Of a DNA stretch of 35,668 bases, positions 5,143 through 26,744 are shown piece after piece. Under the pieces are notes generated by a model that had not been told where the DNA came from, made no database searches, and worked only from the letters and a program-made list of their open reading frames with translations. The position numbers and the translations under genes are program-made. Positions within the stretch are counted from its first letter, which is position 1. Each line of letters opens with the position of its first letter. Source of the DNA: a virus; IMG/VR virus record IMGVR_UViG_3300020027_000024, positions 1 through 35,668 of that record; one strand, given 5' to 3'.

Positions 5143-6054
5143 TTAAGCTCCCGGCGAAGCAAACCCGCCCCGGAAGTCGGTCTGTCCAACCGAAAATCTC
5201 ATGTAGGACGCTGCTTTCAGGTTCTTGCTGTTGAAATCGTTGTCCTTGTCGAAGTCCATTTCGGCACGGTTTTCGAACGTCCACCCCGCCGGAGCATTGG
5301 TCTTGACGAACCATGCCTCGGTGTCGGTCAGATACGGATTGACGATCGGAGCCTTGCCGAGCAGACCGGCCGTGCGCACCGCGTTCACCGCATTGTTGGC
5401 GGTGTCGTTCTGATACTCGGATTTGAGCACCCGGATTGCCTCGAACATGAGGTTGTTCGGGATGACCAGATCCACCGGCCGAAGCGCGATGTTGAGGCCG
5501 CGGCTATTCTTCGCGTCCATGATCTGGATCAGCAGATCTTCCAAGGACGATTCCGCGAAGTCAGCGCCCGGCGTCAGAACGTTCGATTGGCTGCCGCTGG
5601 CGGTCGGATGCGTGGCGGAGAACGCCACCTGTCCATCGCCATAGACGAAGCCTGCCGTGAAGCCTCGGTTGAAGAAATTCGCGGCAACGATCTGGCGCGT
5701 GGTCTCCATGGAGAAGGCGAGGGCCGTGGTCCGGCGCCGCCCGACGATCTCATAAAGATTGTCCTGCTGCTCCTCGAAGGTCCACATGTAGCCCAGCGCA
5801 TAGGCAACGTGCGTATAGCGCGTCGTTGGCCCCTGGCTCTCGCTGTCGAAGGAGATATCGCCGCCTTCGGGCTTGACCGGCGCGAGGCCGAACCCGGTGA
5901 CTTCAACGTCTTCCTCATAGGCTTTGCTGGAACTCTTCACTTCGAAGATTTCCGCGTGGAATTTCGGGTGCTTGGCATATTCCCGGCCCCACCAACGTTG
6001 GATTCCGGGCCATAGAGCTTTCGGGTGATTGCCCGTAGTGATTACACCTGGCAT
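5143..6054 (-). CDS. Major capsid protein
   Basis: 303 residues. The sequence has features of HK97-fold capsid proteins from podophages: an N-terminal WPGIQRWWGREYAK segment, a P-domain-like stretch with YTHVAYALGYMWTFEEQQ, a family-typical HPT...N.L..GADFAESSLEDLLIQI, and NNLMFEAIRVLKSEYQNDTANNA..V near the middle. It forms the icosahedral shell. The scaffold gene lies upstream in the same operon, with accessory head proteins between. I rely on pattern and position; a profile search for capsid families would settle it. Confidence 0.8.
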   Translation of the reverse strand: MPGVITTGNHPKALWPGIQRWWGREYAKHPKFHAEIFEVKSSSKAYEEDVEVTGFGLAPVKPEGGDISFDSESQGPTTRYTHVAYALGYMWTFEEQQDNLYEIVGRRRTTALAFSMETTRQIVAANFFNRGFTAGFVYGDGQVAFSATHPTASGSQSNVLTPGADFAESSLEDLLIQIMDAKNSRGLNIALRPVDLVIPNNLMFEAIRVLKSEYQNDTANNAVNAVRTAGLLGKAPIVNPYLTDTEAWFVKTNAPAGWTFENRAEMDFDKDNDFNSKNLKAASYMRFSVGQTDFRGGFASPGA

Positions 6055-7930: not shown

Positions 7931-8782
7931 CTATTGGCTCCAATAGGCTGCGGCGGCGTCCGCCTTGTCCTTGTACAGGCCCTCTTTAATGTGGCCCTCC
8001 ATCACCCGGCGCTCTTCGCCCGGAATATCCGTGAAGCCCTTGCCCTTCGGGGCGGCAGCGGTGCGCTGCCCAGCCTCCACCGCGCTATGGCCGTTCTTGG
8101 CCGCAGGGGTCTTGCTGAACTTCTCGGGAAAGCGCCGGATTATCTCGGCGCGCGTCTTGGCGAGGTTTTCGGCTATCGTCAACCCCGGCTCGTCTTCCAT
8201 GAGCTGCTCGTGGATGCCCTCGGCCGCCCGGTTCAGCATCTTACTTTTGGTAAACCAGGGGTTTTCGCTCACCCATCGCTCAACATCAGGATGCGGCGCC
8301 TTGGCCTTCGCCGGCTCTTCCTTGGCGGTAGGCTTCCCGGCCTCCTGCTCCGCTTCGTAAAGCTGCTGCTCCATCTGGTTTTGGCGGTCATATTCCGCCG
8401 TGTCCCCAACTTCGACAGCAGCGCGGCGAGCGGCCTCGATCTCGCCGTACATCTTCTTGCGCTGGACCTTGTTCAGCGTCTCCATCTTCGTAAGGCGCTG
8501 TTCGAACGCGGTCTGATCGGCCGTGCGCTGCTGCTCCAGCTTGCGAAGCTGCCGCTCGGTCTGCCCAAGCTGCTTGCGCAAATACGCCGGATTGCCGCGC
8601 TTCACATATTCGTCGGCGTCGATCCAATCCGAGGGATCGCCGCGAAACTCGGCCTTCGGCGCCCAGCCCTGCTCACGGGCGGTGGTTTCGACCTGCGACG
8701 GCTCATCGCCGCCGTCTTCACCTTCGGCCGCCTGGGCCTCGTCCTCGCCCTCTGGGGCGTCGTCTTCATCTGCCATGGGCAT
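7931..8782 (-). CDS. Scaffolding protein (predicted)
   Basis: 283 residues with the composition of a phage scaffold: a very acidic N-terminus (residues 3-30 nearly all D/E/A/G), a long charged coiled coil (about 65-150), an Ala/Lys linker and a basic C-terminal region. It is encoded upstream of the capsid gene, as in P22. Residues 174-222 align without gaps to a neighbouring membrane protein (8832-9170). Two in-frame ATGs exist, at 8782 and 8776. No Shine-Dalgarno lies in the clear: the only G-rich stretch (GCGGG) is the 3' arm of an intrinsic-terminator hairpin ending two bases before the first ATG, so translation may be controlled by that hairpin. Confidence 0.75.
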   Translation of the reverse strand: MPMADEDDAPEGEDEAQAAEGEDGGDEPSQVETTAREQGWAPKAEFRGDPSDWIDADEYVKRGNPAYLRKQLGQTERQLRKLEQQRTADQTAFEQRLTKMETLNKVQRKKMYGEIEAARRAAVEVGDTAEYDRQNQMEQQLYEAEQEAGKPTAKEEPAKAKAPHPDVERWVSENPWFTKSKMLNRAAEGIHEQLMEDEPGLTIAENLAKTRAEIIRRFPEKFSKTPAAKNGHSAVEAGQRTAAAPKGKGFTDIPGEERRVMEGHIKEGLYKDKADAAAAYWSQ

Positions 8783-8783
8783 T

Positions 8784-8805
8784 AAAAAACCCGCGATAAG
8801 CGGGT
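8784..8805 (-). terminator. Intrinsic terminator directly before the scaffold start
   Basis: On the minus strand the RNA reads ACCCGC-UUAUC-GCGGGU followed by six U residues, with the first scaffold ATG two bases later. The stem is 6 bp and GC-rich. It lies in the 49-base gap between the membrane protein stop and the scaffold start, within a run of co-directional late genes, so full expression of the capsid genes needs read-through or a promoter I cannot see. Confidence 0.75.
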
Positions 8806-8831
8806 CGTCCTCTCAAGTTTGGTCCGTCATC

Positions 8832-9170
8832 TCAATGCAGCGTCTGAAACTCGCCCGGATATTTCTTCCGCACGATCGCTTCGACCTGCGCTAGATTCTG
8901 CTGCAACGTCAGGTTCGGCTCATCGCGCATCAGCCGCGCGTGCTCGACTTGAGCCATTTCATTCAAGAAGCTGTTTTCCAGATACCATTTATTGTGCATC
9001 GCCCATTTGTGGACGATCACAACCTCGCCCCATCGGTCCTGAGCGGGCGTAAGCTGCTTGATGCGGCGCCCCTTCCATCGCATGCCCAGCTCAGTGGCGA
9101 ACGCGCCAATCAGGAAACTGCAAATGACCAGCAGGGCATAGGTCACGATGATGAAGATCAGGTCGCGCAT
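8832..9170 (-). CDS. Membrane-anchored protein with a scaffold-like C-terminal segment
   Basis: 112 residues. Residues 4-26 form one hydrophobic N-terminal membrane helix followed by a basic patch (RWKGRRIK), suggesting the remainder faces the cytoplasm. Residues 60-108 align without gaps to residues 174-222 of the scaffold encoded next door: 19 of 49 positions are identical, including LMxDEPxLTxxxNLA. It may be a partial duplicate of the scaffold fused to a membrane anchor. The function is unknown; tethering of head assembly to the membrane is a hypothesis. Its start overlaps the upstream gene by 13 bases. Confidence 0.7.
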   Translation of the reverse strand: MRDLIFIIVTYALLVICSFLIGAFATELGMRWKGRRIKQLTPAQDRWGEVVIVHKWAMHNKWYLENSFLNEMAQVEHARLMRDEPNLTLQQNLAQVEAIVRKKYPGEFQTLH

Positions 9171-9351: not shown

Positions 9352-9915
9352 CTAAAACTCCAGCACCGCCACGATATCCTTATCGTTCAGCAGCCGGTAT
9401 TCGCGCGGCTCTTCATGGCCACGCTCATTGACCACCGGCTTGCCGGCCACCAGCATCCCGGCATAGCGCGCGAATACGATCCGCTCGCCAATCACGGGCA
9501 AGCGGCTGGTGGCCGGCCAGTCGTGATAGCTGAACGCGGCTGGCGACATGGCGATAATGCGGCCCGTCACGCTCCCATGCGCATACATCGCGGCATAAGC
9601 TTCCGGCACGGCGATATTGGAGCGCCGCGCACGGATCTGCGTTTCGCTCTCGTCCGGCAGCACCAGCACCTTGAACTCAGTCGGGACGATGCCGCTATCG
9701 TTAATGCGCACGAGGTCCTCGGCGACGATGTTGGGGTCAGCTTCATCGGGCATTATCGCACCAAGGGCGCGGTGATATGCGTCGCTCTCTTCCTTTGTGC
9801 ATGGCTCCAGCATGTTTTTCAGATAAACAGGCTGAAACGATCCAGCCTCGGCCGCGTCGCTTTGGGCGTTACCCCATGTCGCGACGGGAATCGTCTCGGG
9901 GGTCGTTTCATTCAT
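9352..9915 (-). CDS. Phage-encoded GroES-like co-chaperonin (predicted)
   Basis: 187 residues. The C-terminal 110 match the GroES (Cpn10) fold in order: TEFKVLVLPDESE (79-91) like the first strand, a variable segment where GroES has its mobile loop (92-112), GSVTGRIIAMSPA (114-126), PVIGERIVFARYAG (140-153, compare GroES GD-x-V-x-F-xx-Y-x-G), and YRLLNDKDIVAVLE (173-186, the GroES ending ..DILAV-E). The first 78 residues are an extra N-terminal region. Known phage co-chaperonins, such as T4 gp31, let host GroEL fold the capsid protein; this gene lies in the head operon near scaffold and capsid. Sequence match by eye; a profile search would confirm. Confidence 0.72.
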   Translation of the reverse strand: MNETTPETIPVATWGNAQSDAAEAGSFQPVYLKNMLEPCTKEESDAYHRALGAIMPDEADPNIVAEDLVRINDSGIVPTEFKVLVLPDESETQIRARRSNIAVPEAYAAMYAHGSVTGRIIAMSPAAFSYHDWPATSRLPVIGERIVFARYAGMLVAGKPVVNERGHEEPREYRLLNDKDIVAVLEF

Positions 9916-10497: not shown

Positions 10498-10754
10498 GCC
10501 GCCTCGCCTCGCTCCTCATGCAATCCACCAGCAAATCCGCATGGCCCGTAATAGCGCATCACGCTGCACGGAAGAGTCTCAGCAACATTCCCAGTCGTCG
10601 GATCAATCCACCCGCAAGCGGCGAGGCAATTAAGCTGTTTTTCATACCATTCAGTGGTCGCGCCGGGCGCGCAGCGCAGATAACTCTGTGCTTCACAATG
10701 CTTGCAATTGATGCAGAGCGGCATCGCCTTCATGCCGAATGGATCGTCATTCAT
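10494..10754 (-). CDS. Cysteine-rich late protein
   Basis: 86 residues with seven cysteines, including CINCKHCE, and others spaced through the protein, so one or two metal sites are likely. It starts four bases before the portal gene ends (ATGA). Short Cys-rich proteins after portal genes occur in several podophages, but their role is not known to me. Confidence 0.65.
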   Translation of the reverse strand: MNDDPFGMKAMPLCINCKHCEAQSYLRCAPGATTEWYEKQLNCLAACGWIDPTTGNVAETLPCSVMRYYGPCGFAGGLHEERGEAA

Positions 10755-13069
10755 GCCGCCTCGCCTCTCTCAGCAGCCTCTTGCTGCTTTTCCTTCAGCG
10801 CCATCTCGCGCTCCGCAAGCGCCGCCTCATGCGCCGTCTTGGCGTTCTGCAAGCGCTGCGTTTCGGTGGCCAGCGCCTGATCCTGGTCCAGATGCCCGGA
10901 CATCACCGCCGCATGGTCCATCGCCGTTTGCTGATGGATCGATTGCGTTTCGACCGAGGTCTTCTCGGCAATCGACAGATCCTTCATCGCCGATGCCTTC
11001 TTCTTCTGCACTTCGGCCTCGGCATTGGCCTGCATCAGCGGATCGGGGCCTTCCGGCGTCGGCTTGATGAGCTGATCGATGTCCTCGATGTTCGCCGCTA
11101 TGAAAATGCGGCGCAGGCCCTGCTCCGTATTCATGTTCGGGTGGCCCATATTGGACTCGATAATCTGCGCCTTGGCCATCTTCTGCATGTCCGTGACCTG
11201 GCTCGGATCGGCAACCGGCACGATATCGCAGTTCTCATATTCGTAATCGCCGGCCATAGTCGGGCGCTCGAGATGCACGGCGAGCTGCGGCGGAAGTTCC
11301 TGAGGGGCACCGCCTCCGCCAGCCCCTCCACCGGGCTGTTGCGCCTGGGGGGCTTGGGCGGCAGCACCTGCGGAGGATGCCGTCGCGGTACCGCCGCCCA
11401 TTGCCTCACCGGCCATCGCTCCGGGAGCTTGCGGGGCGCCGCCACCTCCGGCGCCAGTTCCTGGCTCCATCGGCGGGCCGCCATTGTGGCCCATCATCAA
11501 TTGCTGCTTGAACTGCTCGACGGCCTGCAACACCTGCGGCGATGGCGACCAGTCGATAATGCGTTGGTATTCTTCCTCGTCCGGATAACGCCGGTTGAGC
11601 TCATAGAGCAGCCTGAATTCCCGCGCGAGCGAGCGGAACAACCGCTTGATGATCGAGGTAAAGACCTTCAGGCCCTGCTCAATCAGCGCCAGGAGCGTCG
11701 TCGGCTGCATGGTCTGCGCATGCGCGTCGCCGGTGAGCACGTCCTGGACGCTGGCGATCTGCTTGCCCGCGTCGATCAGCAGCCCAAGCAGTTGAAACAG
11801 TGTGGATGACGGGCCTGGGAAATTATGCGGCACGATGGCATCGCGGATATTCTTGCCCGGCACATTGAGCTGCGTCCACTCGTTCATCGCAATGCGGATT
11901 TGCGCCTTTTTCAGGTTCATGCCAGAGCCGAGAAACCCGCCGCCTGAATTCTGAAGGTGCGCCGCGTCGATCATCAAGTTGAGCGAGGTGTTGACCCCTT
12001 CGCCGATCGCGCGCAGCAGGCGCCCGAAACCGATGCCGTAGAAGCCGCCATTGGGATCCGGCAGGAAGGGGAAGTGCACGAAGTAATCGCGGCGCGGAAT
12101 GCGCACGATCACGCCGTCCTCACGCACCCTGGTCTTTTGCAGGTCGTAGTTAGACACGACCCGCACGCACTTGCCTGAATCCTTGTGCACCGTGACGATC
12201 CAGGGCTCGCGCAGTCCATCGCCGTCCAGGTCCTCGAAGCGATGCTGCTCGAGGAACACATGCGGCGCGTCGCTGTCGCTCGGGCTGTCCGTCTTGCCGT
12301 CAGGGCGCGCTATGCCAGGCGTGCCGCCGGCCGATCCATATTCGAATTCAAGGAACGTCTCGCCGCGAATGCGCTCCTCGATCTGATAGGGGTAAAGCTC
12401 GATTTCGTGCGTAATGCGCGGCACATCGCGCAAGCTCTTGGTGTTCTGATTGACCACCACGTTCATGGCCGAGATGAAGTCGGAGCAGTTCTTGCTGTTC
12501 TCGACGTCGCGATAGACCTTCTTGAACCCGTCGCCCAGCACCGGCAGCTGGTGGCACATGGTGTCGGTTTCGTCTTCCCAGCCATCCATTTCCTTCAGGA
12601 TCTGGTAGGACATGTGCGTCGAGACGCGCTCGGCCCGCGCCTGCTTCAGCCCCATGGGATCGGGGCCGATGACCTTGATCTTCACGATTTTATCGCCCGG
12701 CACCATCGCCGGATAGGACCGCGCCCCGAACTGCAAGGCGGAGTTGGTGAGGATCGGGTATTTGATGTTCGAAGCTTTTTCGAACGGGTAGTTCTTCACC
12801 TCGGATTTCTGCAACACGGCATCCATGGACAGCCGCGCCTCTTCCTCCCAATCCGAGCGTGACGCCTTGTCGATGGTGTATTCGTCGATGACGCGCGAGG
12901 CCATGGCGCTCAGCACATCCTCGGCCAGCTCCCCGGCGATATTGGCGCTCTCGTCCCACTTCTGAAGCTGTTCGAGCGGGTGCGGCTTTTGCTGCTGCTC
13001 TTCGGCAGGCACAGCTTCGCCCTCGCCGATCTCCTGATCGTCGATAGGATAGATTTGGGGGAGAGCCAT
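10751..13069 (-). CDS. Portal protein, P22-like
   Basis: 772 residues; P22 portal has 725. It begins MALPQIYPIDD, has an acidic/Gln-rich first 45 residues, then conserved portal-type text such as YPFEKASNIKYPILTNSALQ, GDGFKKVYRDVENSKNCSDF, PRITHEIELYPYQIEERI and DYFVHFPFLPDPNGGFYGIGFG, followed by a wing/crown region and a Gly/Ala/Pro-rich linker (about 530-600). The end is a long helical barrel-like segment rich in A/E/K/Q. It forms the dodecameric channel for DNA entry and the base of the tail. Its first ten codons are nearly copied by the small upstream gene (13069-13335). The ATG overlaps the upstream TAA. Confidence 0.9.
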   Translation of the reverse strand: MALPQIYPIDDQEIGEGEAVPAEEQQQKPHPLEQLQKWDESANIAGELAEDVLSAMASRVIDEYTIDKASRSDWEEEARLSMDAVLQKSEVKNYPFEKASNIKYPILTNSALQFGARSYPAMVPGDKIVKIKVIGPDPMGLKQARAERVSTHMSYQILKEMDGWEDETDTMCHQLPVLGDGFKKVYRDVENSKNCSDFISAMNVVVNQNTKSLRDVPRITHEIELYPYQIEERIRGETFLEFEYGSAGGTPGIARPDGKTDSPSDSDAPHVFLEQHRFEDLDGDGLREPWIVTVHKDSGKCVRVVSNYDLQKTRVREDGVIVRIPRRDYFVHFPFLPDPNGGFYGIGFGRLLRAIGEGVNTSLNLMIDAAHLQNSGGGFLGSGMNLKKAQIRIAMNEWTQLNVPGKNIRDAIVPHNFPGPSSTLFQLLGLLIDAGKQIASVQDVLTGDAHAQTMQPTTLLALIEQGLKVFTSIIKRLFRSLAREFRLLYELNRRYPDEEEYQRIIDWSPSPQVLQAVEQFKQQLMMGHNGGPPMEPGTGAGGGGAPQAPGAMAGEAMGGGTATASSAGAAAQAPQAQQPGGGAGGGGAPQELPPQLAVHLERPTMAGDYEYENCDIVPVADPSQVTDMQKMAKAQIIESNMGHPNMNTEQGLRRIFIAANIEDIDQLIKPTPEGPDPLMQANAEAEVQKKKASAMKDLSIAEKTSVETQSIHQQTAMDHAAVMSGHLDQDQALATETQRLQNAKTAHEAALAEREMALKEKQQEAAERGEAA

Positions 13070-13467: not shown

Positions 13468-14205
13468 TCAATACCCCGTCTCTGCTGACCGGCCGCGATT
13501 GCGCTGCCATGGGTCGTCGTCTTCATGATCTTCCGGCGGCAGGCACGCATACAGCATCCCGGTCATGACCAGGTAGCGCATGTCGTCCATGCCGTGGTCG
13601 TTCTCTTTCACGACCTTGCCCTTCTCATCACGCCGGTAAATCCGGTATTCGCTCTGCCAATTGACGCAGTTGCGGAACACCTTGAGACGCCCGGACGACA
13701 TGCGGCGATAGCAAGCCAGAATGCCTGCCTCGACGCTGTTGTCAGCCTCGACAAGATTGAGCCCAAGCGCGCGATATTCGTCGATGAGCTTCGATCCGTC
13801 CTTCTGATTGCTGCCGGCCGAGGCGGGATCGATCGCGCCCCATATCCAGGCGCCGCGCTGCTTGATCGCATCGGCGTGAACCTGTGGCGGCTGCTGGCCC
13901 ATGTAATGTTCGGAATAAATATAGACCACGTCGCTTTCGCGATCCCACGCGCCCCAGTGCGCCGATGTGATCTTCCACCCGACATCGAGCCCGTAAGCCT
14001 TGGGCCAATAGTCCGGGATTTCGAATGGATCGACGACGATCTGCTTCTCGTCAATCGGATAGATACGTCCCGAGCCGAGCATGGGCACGCCCTCGGCACG
14101 CGCATCACGCTCATGCAGCGGAAAGGCGTCGAGCAACTCGTCCTTTTGCTGGCGCGAAAGGTGCGGCACGTCATTCCACCCGATCTGAACGCAATATCGG
14201 CTCAA
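13468..14205 (-). CDS. Large terminase subunit, nuclease half (second fragment)
   Basis: 245 residues from a TTG at 14205 that overlaps the TGA of the ATPase half. It starts in the linker: the frame continues upstream as AKREE, and WNDVPHLS is typical of P22-type large terminases just after the ATPase domain. RNase H-like nuclease features follow: YGLDVGW, AIDPASAG..QKDG, and HGMDDMRYLVM with late acidic residues. The two halves together would have about 496 residues, like P22 gp2 (499). Either the protein is made as two chains, or a frameshift joins them, or one base is wrong in the GC-rich junction. Confidence 0.85.
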   Translation of the reverse strand: MSRYCVQIGWNDVPHLSRQQKDELLDAFPLHERDARAEGVPMLGSGRIYPIDEKQIVVDPFEIPDYWPKAYGLDVGWKITSAHWGAWDRESDVVYIYSEHYMGQQPPQVHADAIKQRGAWIWGAIDPASAGSNQKDGSKLIDEYRALGLNLVEADNSVEAGILACYRRMSSGRLKVFRNCVNWQSEYRIYRRDEKGKVVKENDHGMDDMRYLVMTGMLYACLPPEDHEDDDPWQRNRGRSAETGY

Positions 14206-14960
14206 TTCTTCACGCTTGGCGCGGCGGCGGGCGCCATATGCGGCATGTAGCGCAGCACCACGTTGGACAGCCCCTCAAGCGGCGTGAAGGTGCATATCAT
14301 GCTGCCTGAAGTCGTCATGAGCCTAGCCATGCATTCGCTGTAGACATCTTCCGGCGGTTCCTCATCCATCCAAATCAAGTGCTTGGCCGTGCCCTGGAAT
14401 TTCTTCCGGCCCTGATCGTAGGACTTGAAGCCGAGGTAGCTAGTCCCACCGCTCGCATGCTTAACGCGCACCGTGTCGACCGCTTGCGCCGTACCCTGCC
14501 GATGCGTCGGATTGCCGATGATATTGGCGCCGGGGAGCAGTCCCGTGCCGTACTCGCCAAACGGCCCGAGCAAGATGAGCTGCGGAATGTCACGCGTCGT
14601 CTCGCCCGTATCACCCGCAACCCACGCATTGATCGCGTGATCGAAGCGCCGGCCAGGCCACCAATCCGGATAGAGCCCGGTGAGGTGCAATGCGGTCTCA
14701 TAGCCACCGAGCCCGAACGATTTGCCAACGCGATTGGCGGCGACCGCCGCGCGCTCATGATGCTCGATGCCAGCGGCGAAGAATTGAATATGCTTGGGAT
14801 ACAGCTCACGGCGAAGCGGACCTTCGTCGGGATAGATGGTGAAGAGCTTGCGGCGCTTGGCTCGATCAATGGACGCTTGAAGCGCCTCCATCGCCGATAT
14901 CAACGCCGAGCGCTCTGGCCTCTCGGAGAGCTGCAATAAACTGCTGTCTGATTTGATCAT
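14202..14960 (-). CDS. Large terminase subunit, ATPase half (first fragment)
   Basis: 252 residues. It contains a P22-type Walker A (AANRVGKS), a Walker B (HLIWMDEEP) and the coupling motif region CTFTPLEGLSNVVLRY. The motor ATPase cuts and packs DNA into the prohead. It then reads PHMAPAAAPSVKN and stops, where uninterrupted relatives continue into the nuclease domain. Start 14960 overlaps the small subunit gene by 95 bases; an alternative ATG at 14891 would cut this to 26. No clear ribosome site separates the two. Confidence 0.88.
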   Translation of the reverse strand: MIKSDSSLLQLSERPERSALISAMEALQASIDRAKRRKLFTIYPDEGPLRRELYPKHIQFFAAGIEHHERAAVAANRVGKSFGLGGYETALHLTGLYPDWWPGRRFDHAINAWVAGDTGETTRDIPQLILLGPFGEYGTGLLPGANIIGNPTHRQGTAQAVDTVRVKHASGGTSYLGFKSYDQGRKKFQGTAKHLIWMDEEPPEDVYSECMARLMTTSGSMICTFTPLEGLSNVVLRYMPHMAPAAAPSVKN

Positions 14961-25517: not shown

Positions 25518-25891
25518 GGCGTCACCTTGATTACCGGGACGCCAGATGCTTCGGCCAATTCGACCATGTTCGCCGTACCGCGCCCGCCGGGGAAGGCGAT
25601 CACCAGATCGGGCTTGCCATGCTCCAGCATGCGACGGTTTCTGATAGGCCCGGCTGCCCTGCCGTCCCGCCTCCAATTGGCCGGAAAAACCAATGGCTTC
25701 AGATCTTCGCTTTCAGCCCAGAGGCCCGCGCCTTCATCAGCGCCCTTGGCTCCGCCATGCATCACCGCCGTGATCGGCCACGCCTTATGACCAAGCTGAT
25801 TTGTGATGTCACCGCGTGCGAAGCGGTTGAGATAGTTCAGGACGTCAGCGCTATCGAGATTGCGTCCGCCGCAAATCAGCACACGAGTCAT
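25514..25891 (-). CDS. DUF2493 / SLOG-fold protein (YspA-like)
   Basis: 125 residues from ATG 25891 (ATGA). RVLICGGRN at the start, VMHGGAKGADEGAGLWAE in the middle and AFPGGRGTANMVELAEASGVPVI at the end are the phosphate/nucleotide-binding loops of the SLOG superfamily (DUF2493). Such proteins bind or cleave small nucleotide ligands and occur in phages and in defence contexts. Substrate not predictable. Confidence 0.75.
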   Translation of the reverse strand: MTRVLICGGRNLDSADVLNYLNRFARGDITNQLGHKAWPITAVMHGGAKGADEGAGLWAESEDLKPLVFPANWRRDGRAAGPIRNRRMLEHGKPDLVIAFPGGRGTANMVELAEASGVPVIKVTP

Positions 25892-26388
25892 CCCGCCCTC
25901 CCTGACCTGACGCTCGCCCCCGCGTGGTGGGCGCAATAGCGCTTGTGACCGCTCTTGCCCGCCCCACAGAAGAGGTATGGAGCGCCGTCATTGACCGGCC
26001 AGCCGCACTGATCTGGGCGGCGCTCGGAGAGCGTGACCGGCTCGCTTTCGCACTTCACCGGAACCGGCGCGGGCTTGGGCAGCGATGGGGGCTTCACCTT
26101 GGGATTTTGCGATTGGAGACCCAGCGACCCGAAGCGGACTATGGTACGCGGCCGGGAGGGGCGACGCTCAGCGCGTGGCGGCCTAGGCTCTCTGATCTTT
26201 ATGTCGTCACACGACAGCACGCGGACGAGGCCGAGACGCGTGACGCGACCAATAATGGCGCTGCGTGAATGTCCGGGGAATGCGGACAGCATGATTTCCC
26301 CGGCGGATTTGCGTTCATCCACCCACAAGCGCGAAAGCGTGGCGTCTTCTTCCGGGGTCCAGTCAAAGCCCTTGCCGCGAGACCTCAT
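25888..26388 (-). CDS. Phage-encoded GcrA-family regulator
   Basis: 166 residues from ATG 26388 (ATGA with upstream stop; the GTG at 26397 is less likely). The N-terminal WTPEEDATLSRLWVDERKSAGEIM...SRSAIIGRVTRLGL matches the GcrA HTH, where W-T-x-E starts helix 1 and N/S-A-V-I-G-K/R-V-x-R-L-G-L is the recognition helix. A basic/proline linker follows, and the end CGWPVNDGAPYLFCGAGKSGHKRYCAHHA has the conserved GcrA cysteines and histidines. In Caulobacter, GcrA activates promoters methylated at GANTC by CcrM. A phage copy could redirect host cell-cycle transcription or control phage promoters. Confidence 0.8.
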   Translation of the reverse strand: MRSRGKGFDWTPEEDATLSRLWVDERKSAGEIMLSAFPGHSRSAIIGRVTRLGLVRVLSCDDIKIREPRPPRAERRPSRPRTIVRFGSLGLQSQNPKVKPPSLPKPAPVPVKCESEPVTLSERRPDQCGWPVNDGAPYLFCGAGKSGHKRYCAHHAGASVRSGRAG

Positions 26389-26744
26389 GCCACGCACTCC
26401 AAGGCCGGGAGGTCGTCGAGCACGAGGCGGTAGCCGGTTTCGTAGCGGATCGGAATTCCCACACCGAGTGGTTTAAGCGCTCGGCGAATGCGGCACAGAT
26501 GCACGCGGATAGTGTTTCGCTCATATTCAGGGCCCTCTTCCGCGCCCCAGAGCTTCGATGCGAGATGCTCCATTGAACAGGCGAGGGGATGCCGATCCAC
26601 CAGCGCGCGCAGGATCACGGCCTGATGCGGCGTCAGCTTCACCGTCAGTCCGAACCGCGTGGCGACATTGCTCTCGCGGCAGACGAGGAGGGTGAGCGGG
26701 GTGATTTGATTGCCGCATGTTGGGCACACCGAGGAGGAGGTCAT
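26385..26744 (-). CDS. Orphan OmpR/PhoB-type winged-helix protein with zinc knuckle
   Basis: 119 residues from the ATG at 26744. CPTCG begins a small metal site; LTPHQAVILRALVDRHPLACSMEHLASKLWG...RNTIRVHLCRIRRALKPLGVGIPIRYETGYRLVL is the trans_reg_C winged helix with its typical YETGYRL ending. There is no receiver domain, so it would not be controlled by a sensor kinase. Probable phage regulator. Confidence 0.75.
   Translation of the reverse strand: MTSSSVCPTCGNQITPLTLLVCRESNVATRFGLTVKLTPHQAVILRALVDRHPLACSMEHLASKLWGAEEGPEYERNTIRVHLCRIRRALKPLGVGIPIRYETGYRLVLDDLPALECVA

Follow-up and report, generated by a model that had tools for sequence, protein, structure and literature searches.

The window, by which we mean the whole 35,668-nt stretch of viral DNA analysed here (IMG/VR virus record IMGVR_UViG_3300020027_000024, positions 1 to 35,668), carries its head genes on the minus strand, in the order large terminase (two ORFs), portal, small ORFs, GroES-like gene, a 63-aa ORF, a putative membrane protein, a scaffold-like protein, further ORFs and the major capsid protein. 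The features on which the argument depends are as follows.

10751..13069, minus strand: portal protein (phrog_1216, E 2.7e-16)
9352..9915, minus strand: GroES-like (Cpn10) protein (Pfam Cpn10 E 0.0067, below the cut-off; the relatives' gene at this place is annotated GroES or chaperonin 10)
8832..9170, minus strand: putative membrane-anchored scaffold-domain protein, 112 aa (ORF; homologues of the same architecture; dN/dS against the related phage L003)
9093..9161, minus strand: predicted N-terminal membrane helix of that protein, residues ~4-26, followed by basic residues (hydropathy, charge count, AlphaFold2)
8847..9014, minus strand: its copy of the scaffold NPWF-type domain, residues 53-108 (alignment, profiles, AlphaFold2)
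7931..8782, minus strand: scaffold-like protein, 283 aa, with an acidic N-terminus, a small N-terminal domain, a coiled coil (65-149), the NPWF domain, a linker and a C-terminal helix-turn-helix
8117..8284, minus strand: NPWF domain of the scaffold, residues 167-222 (alignment, AlphaFold2)
7934..8032, minus strand: C-terminal helix-turn-helix of the scaffold, residues 251-283, likely coat-binding and not copied (AlphaFold2, analogy with P22 gp8)
5143..6054, minus strand: major capsid protein, Mu gpT-like (phrog_4523, E 2.1e-8; PF10124, E 5e-4), the basis of the clade tree

The large terminase is seemingly split in two on the minus strand: ORFs at 13468-14205 and 14202-14960 share 4 bases, and both match terL families; MW202785 likewise has two large-terminase genes in its annotation. 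Further along, a GcrA-like cell-cycle regulator is encoded at 25888-26397 on the minus strand (PF07750, E 5e-16), and integrase and S24 repressor genes are present. Together these genes indicate a probably temperate phage with an alphaproteobacterial host, and the hosts of its group are most likely Alphaproteobacteria.

Spacing around the membrane gene is tight in several relatives: its start lies no more than a few bases from the stop of the GroES-like gene in L003, L008 and L069, and about 10 bases lie between its end and the scaffold start in L069 and L070. Directly 5' of the scaffold start in the window, positions 8783-8820 (minus strand) comprise an SD-like GAGAGGA, a GC hairpin, a U-run and the start codon. 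A hairpin occupies the same place in L003, L008, L015, L017 (twice), L060, L068 and L018, and the letters of its GC stem vary on both sides between phages. It would act either as a terminator or attenuator, or as a hairpin at the ribosome site that controls expression of the scaffold; lying with its U-run between the two genes, it suggests that the membrane gene and the scaffold may be expressed differently.

The two proteins and their common domain

Pfam and PHROGs assigned no function to the 283-aa protein, and a Foldseek search with it returned unnamed phage proteins only. We infer that it is the scaffold from its gene position (GroES-like gene, scaffold-like gene, further ORFs, capsid), its acidic N-terminus (pI 4.05) and its long coiled coil; the C-terminal helix-turn-helix and the location shortly 5' of the capsid gene are also scaffold features, and many distinct relatives occupy the same gene position. 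In the AlphaFold2 model, built with 46 aligned sequences, an unstructured acidic N-terminus, a small domain and the coiled coil (65-149) are followed by a compact helical domain (165-222, pLDDT about 96), then by a disordered linker and a helix-turn-helix at 255-282. Between the window (8306-8704) and L003 (6997-7395), the coiled-coil half of the scaffold gene is 75% identical in DNA, between flanks at 95-96%, a mosaic suggesting exchange of the N-terminal half.

The 112-aa protein has a single N-terminal membrane helix, as the original prediction held: mean hydropathy over 19 residues peaks at 2.78 at residues 4-22, and a scan found nothing comparable in the rest of the protein. AlphaFold2 draws an unbroken helix from residue 2 to 36 and places the helices of the domain at 42-59, 61-65, 67-83, 89-103 and 105-109 (mean pLDDT 84.6). 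The hydrophobic stretch is followed by the basic residues R31, K33, R35, R36 and K38. Seven of eight membrane proteins have 3 to 6 positive charges in the 15 residues after the helix, and in seven of eight the few residues before it are either free of positive charge or have a single one offset by a negative charge. By the positive-inside rule, this distribution of basic residues predicts an N-out/C-in orientation; the domain would thus face the cytoplasm, the compartment where heads are assembled. The coiled coil and the C-terminal coat-binding helix-turn-helix are absent from all nine membrane-protein sequences and from the AlphaFold2 model. Neither Pfam nor PHROGs gave a credible known family for the protein, Foldseek gave no significant fold match, and sequence searches found no credible relative of solved structure. 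Between the gene and its L003 counterpart, seven codons differ synonymously and two non-synonymously (dN 0.012, dS 0.100); on this single pair with few changes, the low dN/dS of about 0.12 indicates a gene that is maintained under purifying selection.

Residues 53-108 of the membrane protein align without gaps to residues 167-222 of the scaffold-like protein, with 21 of 56 positions identical and 35 of 56 similar (BLASTP E 4e-13). The match first noticed, 19 of 49 identities between residues 60-108 and 174-222, was correct and forms part of this longer one. The Smith-Waterman score of the domain pair is 127, against a mean of 28 and a maximum of 56 in shuffles, none of 5000 reaching it; the helix pattern is the same in both AlphaFold2 models, at a constant offset of 114 residues. 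What the proteins have in common is a discrete helical domain of ~57 residues, N-x-W-[FY] ... P-x-x-F, in which the positions W, N, W-[FY], A and P-x-x-F are conserved in both scaffold and membrane copies. The copied piece had been described as the C-terminal segment of the scaffold; this must be corrected, since about 61 scaffold residues lie beyond it, including the linker and the helix-turn-helix, which folds separately.

A comparison of profiles across related phages, proposed with the original prediction and run here, relates the two segments in both directions. A profile made only of membrane copies matches scaffolds of distant phages (best 2e-17), and one made only of outgroup scaffolds matches the membrane proteins at 2e-15 to 3e-6 (L015 only at 0.05); hhalign gives a probability of 99.6% over all 55 columns. 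Chance resemblance is ruled out by the shuffles, BLASTP and these two-way profiles. On such statistical grounds, the membrane protein and the scaffold domain are homologous. Unrelated proteins carrying the segment in the absence of a scaffold were also looked for: among all ORFs of 145 loci, only scaffolds and membrane proteins had the domain. The membrane-family profile found prophage scaffolds only in four bacterial genomes with related prophages, and just two of the same prophage scaffolds in 385 genomes of one bacterial class, while a degenerate second scan of viral contigs returned known members only. In records of isolated phages there was no close relative, the sole convincing match of the membrane protein being a scaffold (H1), and the L008 copy had no match there. 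In trees of the 55 columns, the membrane copies cluster in most bootstraps of a large tree, not in a smaller one; on the latter, an AU test does not reject a single clade of membrane copies (p 0.12-0.19), 55 columns being too few.

Distribution among related phages

Scans of viral contigs and genomes, with scaffold and capsid proteins as queries, recovered about 80 distinct scaffold domains with the common motif W-x3-N-x-W-[FY] ... [RK]-[FY]-P-[ED]-[KR]-F. Eight lineages of one clade, within which capsids are at least 67% identical, encode a protein with a TM helix and the domain between the GroES-like and scaffold genes: window/L003, L008, L015, L016/L017, L060/L067, L068, L069 and L070. The gene sits directly 5' of the scaffold gene, except in L003, where another ORF intervenes. 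A sporadic, one-off ORF is ruled out by its presence in eight lineages. Decay has gone furthest in the L015 copy (scaffold-based profiles give E 0.004-0.05), which is recognised more by position, TM helix and the membrane-family profile than by the scaffold profile. The idea that a scaffold segment was duplicated onto a membrane anchor is well supported, by the two-way profiles, the eight lineages, the constant gene place and the lack of domain matches beyond scaffolds and these proteins. The joining of a TM anchor to a scaffold domain is real and recurs, and it is apparently undescribed. Just 5' of the scaffold gene of L023, at about 5779-5866, lies a hydrophobic ORF of ~30 aa (MTAAIAVIALICGLVALAGYIGDRIGYHLL) without the domain, which might resemble the TM half before fusion.

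Within the same capsid clade, L009, L018/L019, L059 and L073 are without the membrane gene, as are all outgroups (capsid identity at most 57%). On the capsid tree, about four changes are required to explain where it occurs, and each half of the clade includes carriers. The pattern suggests an early gain followed by several losses, or local exchange. Besides being patchy, the gene diverges faster than the neighbouring capsid gene. From its absence in clade members and outgroups, it follows that this head type has no general need of the protein, the role of which would then be to improve or regulate assembly.

In three phages the scaffold domain itself has strongly diverged, with NPAI or NPAV for NPWF (L069 2961-3929, L070 3879-4820, L073 2236-3171). 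Despite this, the membrane copies of L069 and L070 keep N-x-W-Y; L073 is without the membrane gene. Complementarity, with the membrane copy replacing a decayed scaffold domain, is unsupported, given that L073 has the diverged domain and no membrane gene. Since the membrane copy is kept in L069 and L070 where the scaffold domain has diverged, a direct domain-to-domain contact with the scaffold is mildly disfavoured; from the pattern in the three phages, a third partner common to both copies (portal, capsid or GroES-like protein) is at least as likely.

Possible roles of the anchored domain

That the membrane protein places head assembly or the portal at the membrane, or recruits the scaffold, as originally proposed, is plausible by analogy. 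We suggest, at about even confidence, that it is a cytoplasm-facing adaptor of the inner membrane that tethers or nucleates head assembly there. A TM helix joined to a copy of the discrete NPWF domain of the scaffold would yield a membrane-anchored adaptor, which, its gene lying beside those of the portal, the GroES-like protein and the scaffold, would be made alongside these proteins. The surface with which the scaffold makes one of its contacts would be displayed by it at the inner membrane, candidates for that contact being the portal, the coat protein, the chaperonin complex and the scaffold itself. By bringing the partner of the scaffold, or the scaffold, to the inner membrane, it might tether or nucleate head assembly at that place.

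The main rival, which we regard as unlikely, is an accessory regulator: the membrane copy would compete with the scaffold for a partner of the latter and sequester that partner at the membrane, thereby adjusting the timing or stoichiometry of assembly rather than nucleating heads there. Consistent with this are the copying of a single scaffold domain, without coiled coil or helix-turn-helix, the non-essential status of the gene across the clade and, in several members, the hairpin and U-run ahead of the scaffold start; yet the position with portal, GroES-like and scaffold genes equally fits a positive role, and inhibition is itself putative. A generic small helical module, sharing its origin with the scaffold domain and not its partner, could instead do a job unrelated to heads. 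The small helical fold and a weak structural likeness to InvH, an unrelated type III secretion (T3SS) pilotin, would agree with such a module, which is nevertheless improbable in view of a domain seen only in scaffolds and membrane proteins, of the residues kept in both copies (W, N, W-[FY], A, P-x-x-F) and of a gene that always adjoins the scaffold.

Other membrane roles can be imagined for a domain that recognises head-assembly proteins, such as superinfection exclusion or action against the assembly of competing phages. Patchy presence and divergence faster than that of the capsid gene are typical of accessory functions, and the phage, with its integrase and S24 repressor, is probably temperate; but the gene lies inside the head cluster and not with prophage-expressed genes, no exclusion-protein family was matched, and we consider such a role quite improbable. 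For a lysis protein (holin, spanin or SAR-like) with a chance resemblance to the scaffold, small size and a single TM helix would be fitting. However, the profiles show that the resemblance is not due to chance, the predicted topology is C-in, gene order at the loci surrounds the protein with head genes and not with endolysin or lysis genes, and PHROG and Pfam profiles gave no holin or spanin match for any of the nine members, so that this reading is very improbable.

The membrane-anchored adaptor remains our preferred reading. A further step, that heads in this clade are started on the inner membrane by the anchored duplicate, which would make them a second, independent case of membrane-linked assembly in tailed phages, is one that we advance tentatively and with some doubt. 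Within a large scaffold family that is uncharacterised, the NPWF domain stands out as a functional part separable from the rest, and its membrane copy offers a natural minimal bait for the binding partner. The gene pair also makes the wider question of membrane-linked head assembly testable in another type of phage.

Comparison with known systems

The neighbouring scaffold-like protein is of the P22 gp8 type in its acidic N-terminus, coiled coil, C-terminal helix-turn-helix and gene placed shortly before the capsid gene. In the P22 scaffold, the C-terminal helix-turn-helix binds coat protein (PMC9965877). The membrane protein differs from that type in having the NPWF domain only, with neither coiled coil nor helix-turn-helix; the compact domain alone was copied, and by this analogy the coat-binding end of the scaffold is presumably absent from the membrane protein.

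Among solved structures, the best match of both domain copies is the T3SS pilotin InvH (PDB 6xfk, 6xfj), with Z 9.5 and rmsd 1.2 over 61 residues for one copy and Z 7.7 and rmsd 3.4 over 60 for the other. InvH is also a small, helical, partner-binding and membrane-attached protein; yet identity is 12%, and it belongs to another compartment and another system. We take the match as a lead rather than a relationship, the Z values falling in a range where helical bundles may match by common arrangement.

The closest functional parallel is with T4, which encodes its own GroES-like protein, gp31; to our knowledge, T4 gp40 is not built from a scaffold domain, whereas in the window protein the TM anchor bears what is recognisably a copy of a domain of the scaffold itself. 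Like gp40, the latter is a predicted integral membrane protein encoded with head genes, as judged by TM prediction and gene order. Since no family match was obtained with PHROG or Pfam and a portal function is here hypothetical, we do not class it as a gp40 relative. The T4 prohead starts on the portal gp20 attached to the inner membrane, and gp40, a membrane chaperone encoded by the phage, takes part together with YidC of the host (PMC4493910, PMC9958956). A 2011 review gives T4 as the only phage with a demonstrated association of prohead and membrane during assembly (PMC3185693). In the open-access literature, we found no paper on a membrane-anchored phage scaffolding protein in head assembly. 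The likeness lies in a membrane factor, encoded by the phage, that acts when prohead assembly begins on the inner membrane (PMC9958956, PMC4493910, PMC3185693), a role that is putative for the window protein. The protein would resemble T4 gp40/gp20 in effect while being built independently; if so, membrane-linked head assembly would have been reached through duplication of a scaffold domain and not through a dedicated portal chaperone.
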